A stretch of 64,000 nucleotides of DNA from an uncultured Lysobacterales bacterium (GTDB lineage: Bacteria > Pseudomonadota > Gammaproteobacteria > Xanthomonadales > SZUA-36), in contig CALDVW010000077.1 of assembly GCA_937924405.1 (NCBI GenBank), positions 1 through 64,000 on the forward strand, read 5' to 3'. The notes under the pieces were generated by a model. That model was given only the letters and a program-made list of their open reading frames with translations, had not been told where the DNA came from and did no database searches. Of the stretch, positions 45,701 through 50,091 are shown piece by piece. Numbering within the stretch: the stretch's first letter is position 1; the number at the start of each line of letters is the position of its first letter. The translations under genes and the position numbers were made by a program.

Positions 45701-46666
45701 ATGCAGAAGAACAATGGAATCATGCTGAAAACAGTCAAGCGGAGGCGCCGCTTCGGCCGGGCAGTCACCAGGGTGTTTTTCATCGCCTTGCTGGCACAGG
45801 CATTTGCCGGCATGGGTGCAGTGGTTGCGGCCGAAGATACGGCGCTGTACTGGTCGATCCACAAGGATGGCGGGCAAGTGGGTTACCTGCTGGGCACGAT
45901 TCACAGCGAAGACCCCCGGGTGCTGGATTTTCCTGCCGGGTTCGTCAGTCAGTTGACCAGCAATCAGCTATTCGCGATGGAAATGGTGCCGGACCTGCCC
46001 ACGCTGAATCGACTCACCGAGTACATGCAGTACCAGGATGGCAAAACACTGGAAAGCCAGGTTGGCCCTGAACGTTTCGCCCTGCTCCAGTCCGAGCTTT
46101 CCCTTTACGGCGTGCCGGATGAGTGGATAACCCGCATGAAGGTGTGGGCGGCCATGATGACACTCAGCGTGCCGCCACCCGAGACAGGGTTTTTCATGGA
46201 TTTTTCACTATCCCTGCGAGCAGCCGGCGGCGGGCTGAAGGTGGTTGGCCTGGAAACCCTGGAGCAACAGCTGTCTTTCCTTGAGGATATGCCGATGGCT
46301 CAGCAACTGGCCTTGCTCGACCAGGCATTGGAAGACTATGACAAGGTAGAACAGATTCATCGGCAGATGGTGGAAAACTACCTGAATGGCAACCTCCAGA
46401 AGTTGACGTCGGAGGCTGAAGCACAACTGGGCCAGCTGGCGCCCGATGTGCGGCAGTATTTCATGGAGCAGGGTATTGATGCCAGAAACCTGAGAATGCT
46501 CGATTCGCTGTTACTGCATTTTGAGTCGGGGCGTGTTTTTATCGCGGTGGGCGCACTGCACTTGCCGGGGGAAAAAGGCCTGATTAATCTCTTGCGTCAG
46601 CGGGGCTTCGATTTACAGCCCCGAGAGCTACCGTTCAGCGGCGGAGCACCGGCGACAAACCCGTAA
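45701..46666 (+). CDS. TraB/GumN family protein
   Basis: A 321-aa protein with an N-terminal membrane or export segment (about 25-43). The paired GxxH motifs of the TraB/GumN (Tiki-like) fold are [10 protein letters not shown] near residue 66 and [11 protein letters not shown] near 286. Metal-dependent protease activity is known for animal Tiki and is unproven in bacteria. An internal start at 45722 is possible. Its 3' end overlaps hvfD on the other strand by 32 bp. Confidence 0.8.
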
Positions 46667-47294
46667 TCAGGGCCAGGGCAAGGAAACTGATTCCCCAGAG
46701 TGGTTCAATAAATATCGTGGTGATGCCCATGATGGCGAACATCAGAGCGGCGGCAATTCCGTCGCCAATCCGGTCATCAATGCAGCTATCCCGACCTGTC
46801 AGCTTGAGCAGTAAATGATCGAGGCTTATTTTTCCGCCGCCGTGGAACAGGAGAGGCAGCAGGATAAGCACGAACAATAGAGGCAGTTTATAATTGCCGG
46901 CGCCCTTTGCCGTGATGACATAGCCTTCCCAGAGTGCAGCCAGTGAATTCCACTCGGCGGGCCAGTGCACGGCGGCGGTAGCTACCGCGGTGATGACAAT
47001 CAGGGACAAGGCCGCGAAACGGGTAAACAACCCCAGCAGAATCAATACGGAGAATACAAGCTCCCCCCAGGTCGCGGCGAGCCAGTTCAGTTCTGAAGGG
47101 ACCAGATTGAATGGCATGGGGAAACCTTTTTGCCAGTCAGCCCACGGAATGTCAGCGAACCAGTTTTCGCCATTCAGTTTCTTGATTCCCGCTTCCCAGA
47201 ACTCCCAGAACATGATCAGGCGCAGCAGTAATGGCCAGAGATAGTCACCCGAGACGCGAAGCCGGGCAGTCATATTGTCGTAAGCGTCAAACAT
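46635..47294 (-). CDS. hvfD: DoxX-family membrane protein of the hvf operon
   Basis: A 219-aa integral membrane protein with about five helices. The DoxX hallmark is LLLRLIMFWEFWEAGIKKLNG near residues 22-42. In MNIO-type RiPP operons a DoxX protein is commonly the last gene. Its role is not settled and may lie in redox or export of the modified peptide. It overlaps hvfC by 8 bases, so it belongs to the operon. The end overlaps the TraB gene. Confidence 0.85.
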   Translation of the reverse strand: MFDAYDNMTARLRVSGDYLWPLLLRLIMFWEFWEAGIKKLNGENWFADIPWADWQKGFPMPFNLVPSELNWLAATWGELVFSVLILLGLFTRFAALSLIVITAVATAAVHWPAEWNSLAALWEGYVITAKGAGNYKLPLLFVLILLPLLFHGGGKISLDHLLLKLTGRDSCIDDRIGDGIAAALMFAIMGITTIFIEPLWGISFLALALITGLSPVLRR

Positions 47295-48096
47295 CGGGAT
47301 TCTTCCTGGTACCGAGCAGAACGTCTTTTTTCCTCAGGTCTTCCAGCAATTCCGCTCCTCCTTCGACGACCAGGCCGGGTTCCGGGTGCCGGATGAGTCG
47401 TGCAACTTTCTTCAACAGCTCCAACCCGGCTAGTCCCTGGTCTTCCAGCAGCAGTTCGAGCAGGAGACGGCTGACGTCGTTCAACTGCATGAATCTCACG
47501 GCATCCTGGCGATTGCGGTAGACAAGAATGTGAGTTGCATCCGCCGGTGGCTGATCTGGCTGGAAATCCGGTTTGATGCGGTGAACCGGGTAACTGTAAG
47601 TCAGAGGCCAGGCCAATGGCGAAAGCACCGGAACATCAGTCAGCAGGTCTCCGTCTTCTTTTGCCTCTGTTGCATCCAGTTCTCTTTCATCCAGCGACAG
47701 GGCCAGTTCGACCCACTCGTAATGAGCCAGTTCATGCAGAAACCCGGGGTCTTCGGCCCGCGGCTTACGGCCATCCTGCAGGTAACGCAGAAACTCCTTG
47801 GCTACTTCCGGAAAAAGGGGGGTCTGGCAACGATGCTCCACGTAGAAATCACGCACCAATTGGCGCCAGTCGCTATCCGTGTAAAGGGCACGCAGTACCG
47901 GGAAGTTACTGGAAAGAAGGGACTGGATATTATTGAAGAAAAGTTCGCGGTAGATTTGCATCCGCCGGTTTTCAATATCTGCCGGTGGCGCGACATGCTC
48001 GGGATCCCGAATATGGGCCGCGAATGCAGTCTGCTGGCTTATTAGCCGATCAGGCCTGTTTTCTTTCGATTCTGTTTTGTTGGAATGATCCGGCAT
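47287..48096 (-). CDS. hvfC: MNIO partner protein (DUF2063, HvfC/BufC type)
   Basis: A 269-aa protein with the N-terminal DUF2063 domain ([30 protein letters not shown]) and a winged-helix-like C-terminal part. Such proteins are the precursor-recognition partners of DUF692 MNIO enzymes. The start at ATG 48096 overlaps hvfB by 47 bases. The longer frame upstream is rejected because it only reads hvfB in another frame. Followed by hvfD with an 8-base overlap. Confidence 0.88.
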
Positions 48097-48943
48097 GGTC
48101 CTGCCATTTATCCTGCATAAGTGCAATGAGTTCCACTTCTTCCAGCAACTCTTTAACGGGCGGTATATTAAAATCCCTTTCCAGTAGCGTGGGAAACACG
48201 CCAAAGGCCTCGTATGCCATGTCCAGAATGTTCCAGACGCCAGATATGACGTCTGCGCCGTGCGTATCGACAATCAGGTCCTGTGCCTCATTGTAATGCC
48301 CGGCAATATGACCGTAAGCGATCCGCTGACCCGGTAGGGCCCGCAGAAACTCGAGGGCATCGTAACGGTGATTGACGCTGTTGACGTAAATATTGTTTAC
48401 ATCCAGGAGCAGGTCACAATCGGCTTCTTGCAGAACGGCCGAAATGAACTCGATTTCGCTCAGCTCCGCCCCTGGCGCTGCATAGTAAGAAACGTTTTCA
48501 ATGGCGATTCTCCGCTCCAGTATGTCCTGCACCCTGTGAATCCTGCTGGCCACATATTCGACCGCTTCAGCGGTGAAGGGGATCGGCATCAGGTCATAAA
48601 GATGGCCGTCATCCGTGCAATAGCTCAGATGTTCGCTGTAACAGCGAACATCGTGCTGATCCAGAAAGTGTCGCAGTCGATGCAGAAACGTTTCGTCCAG
48701 CGGCGACGGGCCTCCAATCGACAGGGAGAGCCCGTGGCAGACGAAAGGTACCTCGCTTGTGAATTCACGAAATTCACGGCCGGGACGGCCACCGACGCCC
48801 ATCCAGTTTTCGGGTGCGGCTTCCAGGAAACTGACGGGCCCCAGGCCGTGAGAACGAAGCGGGCCCAGAAGGGCCCGTCTCAATCCCAGGCCAGCTCCCT
48901 GGACCGGATACCTGCCCGCATTCACGGGTAGGTTCCGATGCAT
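48050..48943 (-). CDS. hvfB: MNIO (DUF692) iron-dependent peptide-modifying enzyme
   Basis: A 297-aa TIM-barrel enzyme of the DUF692 (BufB/HvfB) family of multinuclear non-heme iron oxidases. Metal-ligand regions are visible in [47 protein letters not shown] and YGHIAGHY. Family members modify cysteines in precursor peptides, with 5-thiooxazole formation reported for Hvf-type EGKCG motifs. It lies 21 bp downstream of the precursor gene. No strong ribosome site is visible, suggesting coupling to hvfA translation. Confidence 0.92.
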
Positions 48944-48964
48944 GGGGCTGACACTATTATGGCC

Positions 48965-49330
48965 CTAGCTGTGGCCACCATCACCTTCTTCAGCTTTTTC
49001 ACCGCCGCATTTGCCTTCGCCGCACTTGCCTTCCTCGCCCTTTTCACCGCCACAGGAACCTTCAGCGCCTTTCTCGCCGCCACAGGAACCTTCAGCGCCT
49101 TTCTCGCCGCCGCAGGAACCTTCAGCGCCCTTCTCGCCACCGCATTTGCCTTCACCGCACTTGCCTTCTTCGGTTTTTTCGCCGCCGGCTACCAGGTAGC
49201 CAGTATCGAGATCAGCAGCTTCGAATGGATTTTCAGCAGCAATCGCAGTTGCCGATGCTGCCAGTGAAGATACGAATGCCACGCCTACAGCAGCGGCAAC
49301 GGGCTTGGTATTGATGTATTTGTCAGTCAT
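48965..49330 (-). CDS. hvfA: HvfA-type RiPP precursor with EGKCG/EGSCG repeats
   Basis: A 121-aa precursor with a Sec-type signal peptide (about residues 1-32, ATAIAA|EN), a short linker (NPFEAADLDTGYLVAGGEK), and a Gly/Glu/Cys-rich core. Seven cysteines are present at 58, 63, 73, 83, 93, 103 and 108. Four sit in EGKCG (55-59, 60-64, 100-104, 105-109) and three in EGSCG (70-74, 80-84, 90-94). The tail ends GDGGHS. It heads the hvfABCD operon. GGAG lies ten bases before ATG 49330. The product is expected to be exported and metal-binding after modification. Confidence 0.9.
   Translation of the reverse strand: MTDKYINTKPVAAAVGVAFVSSLAASATAIAAENPFEAADLDTGYLVAGGEKTEEGKCGEGKCGGEKGAEGSCGGEKGAEGSCGGEKGAEGSCGGEKGEEGKCGEGKCGGEKAEEGDGGHS
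49051..49140 (-). repeat. Three 30-bp tandem repeats inside hvfA
   Basis: Three units (49051-49080, 49081-49110, 49111-49140) are nearly identical, differing at a few third positions. Each encodes the ten-residue unit GAEGSCGGEK. The in-frame 30-bp period allows copy-number change without frameshift. Confidence 0.9.
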
Positions 49331-49455
49331 TTCAAAGAATCTCCATTTAGTTATGTATTCGAGCCCGCAGGCCCATGTCTCAAATCGTTTTCCTGAGCGA
49401 CGTTTACAAAAATCGTCGTGCCTCGGAGCAGTTGACCGGAGGCAGTGCCGGATTA

Positions 49456-50091
49456 TTACACTTGCGTTTTAAAATTGAAATCACAAATGTCTCTGACGAT
49501 ACACTCCGGGCAGTTGGGTTTTCTGGCCTTGCAGGTATACCGCCCATGCAAAATCAACCAGTGGTGAGCATCCATTTTGTATTCATCAGGCACGACTTTT
49601 AGAAGTTTGAGCTCAACCTGAAGCGGAGTTTTACCGGGCGCCAGTCCGGTGCGGTTGGAAACCCGAAAAATATGGGTGTCAACTGCGATGGTGGGTTCTC
49701 CGAAAGCGGTATTCAATACTACGTTGGCCGTTTTCCGCCCCACTCCCGGCAGAGCCTCCAAAGACTTACGGTCATGGGGTACCTGGCTATCATGATCGTC
49801 GATGAGAATTTGGCATGTCCTGATGATGTTTACTGCTTTCGTGTTGTAGAGGCCGATGGTCCGGATACAGGCTTTCAACTTTTCCTCCCCGAGCTCAAGC
49901 AACGACTCCGGTGTATTGGCAATCGCGTAAAGCTTTTGAGTCGCCTTGTTTACGCTCACATCAGTCGCCTGTGCGGAAAGTATTACCGCGACCAGCAATT
50001 CAAATGGAGTTTCATATTCCAGCTCGGTTTCCGGCCGGGGTATGACTGATTTCAATCGTTTGAAGAACTCTTTGCGCGCCGCGACCTTCAT
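49456..50091 (-). CDS. nth: Endonuclease III
   Basis: A 211-aa DNA glycosylase/AP lyase for oxidised pyrimidines. The HhH motif LEALPGVGRKTANVV contains the catalytic Lys. The catalytic Asp is in VDTHIFRVSNR. The C-terminal [4Fe-4S] loop is C-x6-C-x2-C-x5-C (CKARKPNCPECIVRDIC). It overlaps rnfE by 4 bases and ends the rnf operon, as in many gammaproteobacteria. Confidence 0.95.
   Translation of the reverse strand: MKVAARKEFFKRLKSVIPRPETELEYETPFELLVAVILSAQATDVSVNKATQKLYAIANTPESLLELGEEKLKACIRTIGLYNTKAVNIIRTCQILIDDHDSQVPHDRKSLEALPGVGRKTANVVLNTAFGEPTIAVDTHIFRVSNRTGLAPGKTPLQVELKLLKVVPDEYKMDAHHWLILHGRYTCKARKPNCPECIVRDICDFNFKTQV

Follow-up and report, generated by a model that had tools for sequence, protein, structure and literature searches.

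The peptides fontiphorin, oxazolin and gonophorin carry 5-thiooxazole and bind copper (PMC13097082, PMC13419390); the fontiphorin and oxazolin operons pair an MNIO enzyme with a DUF2063 partner protein. The hvfABCX operon described here lies at 46635-49330, minus strand, of a 64,000-nucleotide stretch (the window) of contig CALDVW010000077.1 from an uncultured Lysobacterales bacterium (assembly GCA_937924405.1). It is very likely a single-copy captophorin operon (Buf_EGKCG/oxazolin-type), with a thiooxazole peptide that would bind Cu(I) against copper excess.

Four described systems invite comparison. The fontiphorin operon fonABC of Fontimonas thermophila, for which 5-thiooxazole and copper binding have been demonstrated, shares the MNIO, the DUF2063/RRE partner and seven modified cysteines in EGKCG-like repeats; it differs in having no DoxX gene, and its motifs are described as Lys-Cys, whereas three of the seven in the window precursor are Ser-Cys singlets (PMC13097082). 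The oxazolin operon hvfABCX of non-typeable Haemophilus influenzae has four identical gene types, a secretion signal and paired EGKCGEGKCG, but its HvfA holds six cysteines in three AEGKCGEGKCG units, while the window precursor places doublets around three 10-residue EGSCG units (PMC13419390). Bulbicupramide, from mmrABC of Microbulbifer, is similar in its EGKCG units, five to eight cysteines, MNIO plus DUF2063 and Cu(I) binding; the operon is given as mmrA-C with DoxX unmentioned, unlike the window operon (PMC12538549). The Buf1 bufferins share the Sec signal, MNIO plus DUF2063, thiooxazole and copper (PMC12452194), but have a DUF2282 precursor (PF10048), of which none was found in the window's genome, which is 90% complete; the window MNIO also stays under the cut-off of the BufB model NF050167 (255 against 310 bits). 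The features of the locus are as follows.

48965-49330, minus strand: hvfA-like precursor, 121 aa (NF050137, homologues, motif positions, leader conservation).
49004-49168, minus strand: core repeat array, precursor residues 55-109 (translation, Tandem Repeats Finder (TRF), motif table).
48050-48943, minus strand: hvfB, MNIO (DUF692/PF05114) enzyme, 297 aa (NF003818, PDB 3BWW, conserved residues).
47287-48096, minus strand: hvfC, DUF2063 protein with C-terminal NGO1945_C, RRE-type partner, 269 aa (PF09836, PF22106, NF050145, PDB 3DEE).
46635-47294, minus strand: hvfX, DoxX membrane protein, 219 aa (PF07681, NF050144).
49361-49374, minus strand: short hairpin upstream of the hvfA ribosome-binding site (RNA fold; position kept in relatives).

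The original prediction of a complete four-gene operon with overlaps or short gaps throughout holds: the minus strand carries all four open reading frames (ORFs) at the stated place, and family models match each of them. A gap of 21 bp separates hvfA from hvfB, hvfC and hvfX overlap by 8 bp, and hvfB and hvfC overlap by 47 bp if hvfC starts at ATG 48096; this start also gives the length of 269 aa, and a TTG further upstream would give 328 aa. The DoxX gene, first named hvfD, goes by hvfX both in NCBIfam and in the literature (PMC13419390), and that name is used here.

HvfB matches Pfam PF05114 (MbnB_TglH_ChrH) with 338 bits and NCBIfam NF003818 with 432 bits (cut-off 360); its nearest solved structure by sequence is PDB 3BWW (E=1.4e-72). 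HvfC matches PF09836 (DUF2063), PF22106 (NGO1945_C) and NF050145 (322 bits, cut-off 142), with PDB 3DEE as nearest solved structure by sequence (E=9.3e-10); both structures have been assigned to clusters of the EGKCG-peptide type (PMC13097082). HvfX scores 70.4 bits with PF07681 and 126 bits with NF050144 (cut-off 80). Across 95 homologues, little or no variation is seen at fourteen MNIO positions: those of the ligand-type residues (His, Asp, Glu and Asn) and those matching the Arg-Arg and Asp-Phe of FonB. Among them are H70, H105, E149, D181, H212, H216, D226, H228, E255 and D257. The residues tied to Lys-Cys-type specificity in FonB, two adjacent Arg and Asp-Phe (PMC13097082), correspond to the conserved R22-R23 and D257-F258 of HvfB. 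Only one MNIO is found in the genome, and a second copy is possible because the assembly is incomplete; given this single enzyme and the lack of a DUF2282 bufferin, HvfB most likely serves HvfA as its substrate.

The precursor matches the HvfA-family repeat domain NF050137 (21.8 bits, cut-off 19.5; NCBIfam). Its N-terminus has a Lys-containing start, a hydrophobic stretch and AxA at residues 29-31, with Ala at residue 31 in 85% of homologues; judged by eye and by conservation, residues ~1-31 fit a Sec signal peptide, as first proposed. The best-conserved part is an NPF...L..GY segment behind the predicted cleavage site (residues 34-45; F36 97%, L41 95%, G44 100%, Y45 99% across precursors), a candidate recognition segment for HvfC. 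There are exactly seven cysteines, each in a motif, at residues 55, 60, 70, 80, 90, 100 and 105. The earlier count of seven motifs was correct and their description as EGKCG-type was not wholly so: residues 55, 60, 100 and 105 lie in EGKCG, and residues 70, 80 and 90 in EGSCG. The core order is thus KK-S-S-S-KK, with an EGKCGEGKCG doublet at either end of three EGSCG motifs at 10-residue steps. The array is not a product of chance, since it has a TRF score of 171-174 and a homologue of the precursor is present in 55 of 61 relative genomes. The original view of this HvfA as bigger and more regular than a simple one is not supported, and seven sites proved ordinary: among 100 distinct related precursors the number of motifs is 3-16 (median 8), fontiphorin has seven (PMC13097082) and the Microbulbifer peptides have five to eight cysteines (PMC12538549). 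Two related precursors (L081, L099) have EF-hand-like insertions (DxDxDG-like stretches) between Cys motifs, resembling reported EF-hand fusions (PMC12452194).

Precursor homologues occur in at least 352 stretches of a bacterial genome collection. Of 108 loci where a precursor was recognised, duplicates of one genome included, 90 have the MNIO and then the DUF2063 gene directly behind it in the same order; DoxX was detected in 23 of these, many loci stopping short of its position. The order nth-hvfA-hvfB-hvfC is kept in relatives, and in the window's own family the block follows rsxE-nth, with a converging traB gene next where the DNA extends far enough.

The gene content, gene order, family membership, intact MNIO residues and conservation of this locus are observed directly: a signal-like N-terminus with repeated motifs, an intact HvfB-type MNIO and a DUF2063/RRE partner (PME1/HvfC) place it in the Buf_EGKCG/oxazolin class (captophorin, Lys-Cys group). 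The chemistry, copper binding and physiological role are very probably those of the characterised relatives. By analogy, HvfA would be synthesized in the cytoplasm and presented by the RRE domain of HvfC to HvfB, which would use an iron centre and O2 to turn each of the seven cysteines into a 5-thiooxazole, with loss of four hydrogens per Cys. Modified HvfA would then leave through Sec, with the signal peptide cut near residue 31; the mature peptide of ~90 residues would bind Cu(I), either in the periplasm or outside the cell, as a defence against copper excess, and HvfX is assigned a putative supporting role in the membrane. The original prediction of an hvf-type MNIO operon for a ribosomally synthesised and post-translationally modified peptide, with an exported multi-Cys precursor that probably binds copper, is upheld by the family models, the conserved active-site residues and the literature (PMC13097082, PMC12452194, PMC13419390). 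Its description as an uncharacterised natural product applies to the exact peptide only, as the class is structurally solved (5-thiooxazole).

Several points weigh against this assignment. Unlike oxazolin HvfA, the precursor falls under the cut-off of the strict HvfA equivalog of Haemophilus type (NF050188, 22 against 95 bits; NCBIfam); the variants described in the main text of PMC13097082 do not include Ser at motif position 3; a promoter scan found no sigma-70-like promoter in the region; and the mmr genes of Microbulbifer are reported to lack expression (PMC12538549), so that intactness is no guarantee of activity. It is also conceivable, though unlikely, that the same operon and chemistry serve a target other than copper, either a soft metal (gold, mercury, cadmium) or oxidative stress; DoxX proteins have been linked to oxidative or sulfur stress, but every characterised EGKCG product binds copper (PMC13097082, PMC13419390, PMC12538549).

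The unusual point of an otherwise ordinary operon is Ser for Lys at three of the seven sites. Ser is the second commonest form at motif position 3, with 134 EGSCG against 640 EGKCG in the related set, a count that includes duplicate loci and in which Ser is over-represented, because the set was drawn by similarity to a Ser-containing precursor. Spaced singlets make up 106 of 120 Ser motifs, and doublets hold 519 of 631 Lys motifs; these counts are not independent, because repeats copy themselves. A cluster test, with one vote per leader cluster and identical units collapsed, gave Ser as more frequent in singlets in all 17 of 17 informative clusters (sign test 1.5e-5). Counter-examples are a run of Ser motifs spaced by 5 residues (L020), four other precursors with a Ser motif as the first member of a doublet, and one genome of the class with Ser doublets. 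In a sample of 229 class genomes, 55 have Lys doublets and just one, the window's own genome, has Ser pairs at a spacing of 10 (TCN codons), so this sample could not retest the rule. The string EGSCG was not found in the main text of the papers searched; the supplementary tables of PMC13097082 may already list it.

Modification of the three EGSCG sites is inferred from the sequence, and a mixed ligand set, in which the four doublet EGKCG cysteines are converted and the three EGSCG cysteines left as free thiols, is an improbable alternative. The positional preference just described, by which Ser and Lys motifs are not interchangeable, would agree with a mixed set, as would the in vitro activity of FonBC, which modified a substrate with two repeats but left one with a single repeat unmodified (PMC13097082). 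On the other hand, FonBC accepts Ala, Arg and Thr at the motif position held by Ser in the window precursor (PMC13097082), and one related precursor (L058) lies beside hvfBC although it lacks Lys motifs entirely. When MNIO residues were scanned for a link to Ser-rich precursors, no clear-cut difference emerged; the partial shifts seen may reflect relatedness. The Arg-Arg and Asp-Phe positions are alike in Ser-rich and Lys-only species, which argues against a mixed set. A secreted, methanobactin-like chalkophore for scarce copper is scarcely credible. In its favour are the signal peptide of the precursor and the expectation of copper-binding heterocycles; against it, the enzyme lies far under the methanobactin model (TIGR04159, 38 against 325 bits), the partner is a DUF2063 protein with no MbnB/MbnC-type pair, the operon has neither uptake receptor nor export pump, and such operons are tied to copper excess, not shortage (PMC13097082).

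Upstream of hvfA the window has the hairpin GGGCC(TGCG)GGCTC, with a 5 bp stem and a UNCG-type loop. Among 97 precursor leaders, 39 have a GC-rich hairpin (stem of 5 bp or longer) between -52 and -22 relative to the start of the precursor, where dinucleotide shuffling gives 7.3 (standard deviation 2.2); in leaders from the window's family and close relatives the count is 19 of 30. Among control genes from the same loci, each chosen for a ribosome site and an intergenic stretch of 60 nt, 20 of 162 have it; the overall difference from precursors is significant (5e-7), and the smaller precursor set of the first control (5 of 24) is non-significant alone. The window leader by itself does not fold clearly better than shuffled sequence (z = -0.73; -1.40). 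Stem letters vary between genera without loss of pairing, and several of the loops are of UNCG or GNRA type, which points to RNA; the hairpin may act as an attenuator, stabilise the message or mark where the nth transcript ends. An equivalent hairpin stands upstream of hvfA in L003, L011, L013, L018, L027, L028 and others, and in one genus (L027, L028) a T run follows it. A switch reading from L003, in which a hairpin arm can pair instead with the ribosome-binding site, was dropped, as this pairing is absent in the window and in several relatives.

Both the Lys-doublet/Ser-singlet contrast and the leader hairpin go beyond the original prediction, as patterns in sequence. Tentatively, and with more doubt than belief, many EGKCG-family precursors may contain two functionally different kinds of site, the Lys doublet and the Ser singlet placed mostly every 10 residues; the mature peptide might then have two separate metal sites, or the repeats might encode an order of processing, and the hairpin in the messenger leader might control synthesis.

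The gene upstream of hvfA is nth (49456-50091), followed by rsxE. At the other end a converging TraB/GumN-family gene (45701-46666) shares 32 bp (46635-46666) with the 3' end of the DoxX gene, and this convergent neighbour is also retained in close relatives. An antisense ORF of 109 aa across the repeats (48938-49267, plus strand) was rejected as a gene and read as a by-product of the repeats, because homologues conserve the minus-strand frame. The conserved TGTAATAAT upstream of hvfA resembled a -10 box and was rejected, being the stop-codon region of nth. A terminator scan of the region gave matches at chance level only, and an Rfam scan of the whole window gave zero matches.

This operon is one more example of a common, described bacterial class whose known members number over 20,000 (PMC13097082). 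The contrast of Lys and Ser within one peptide makes it a natural substrate for asking whether MNIOs modify Ser-Cys sites; the same peptide could show whether doublets are where these enzymes begin, and whether copper is bound differently by paired and single thiooxazoles.
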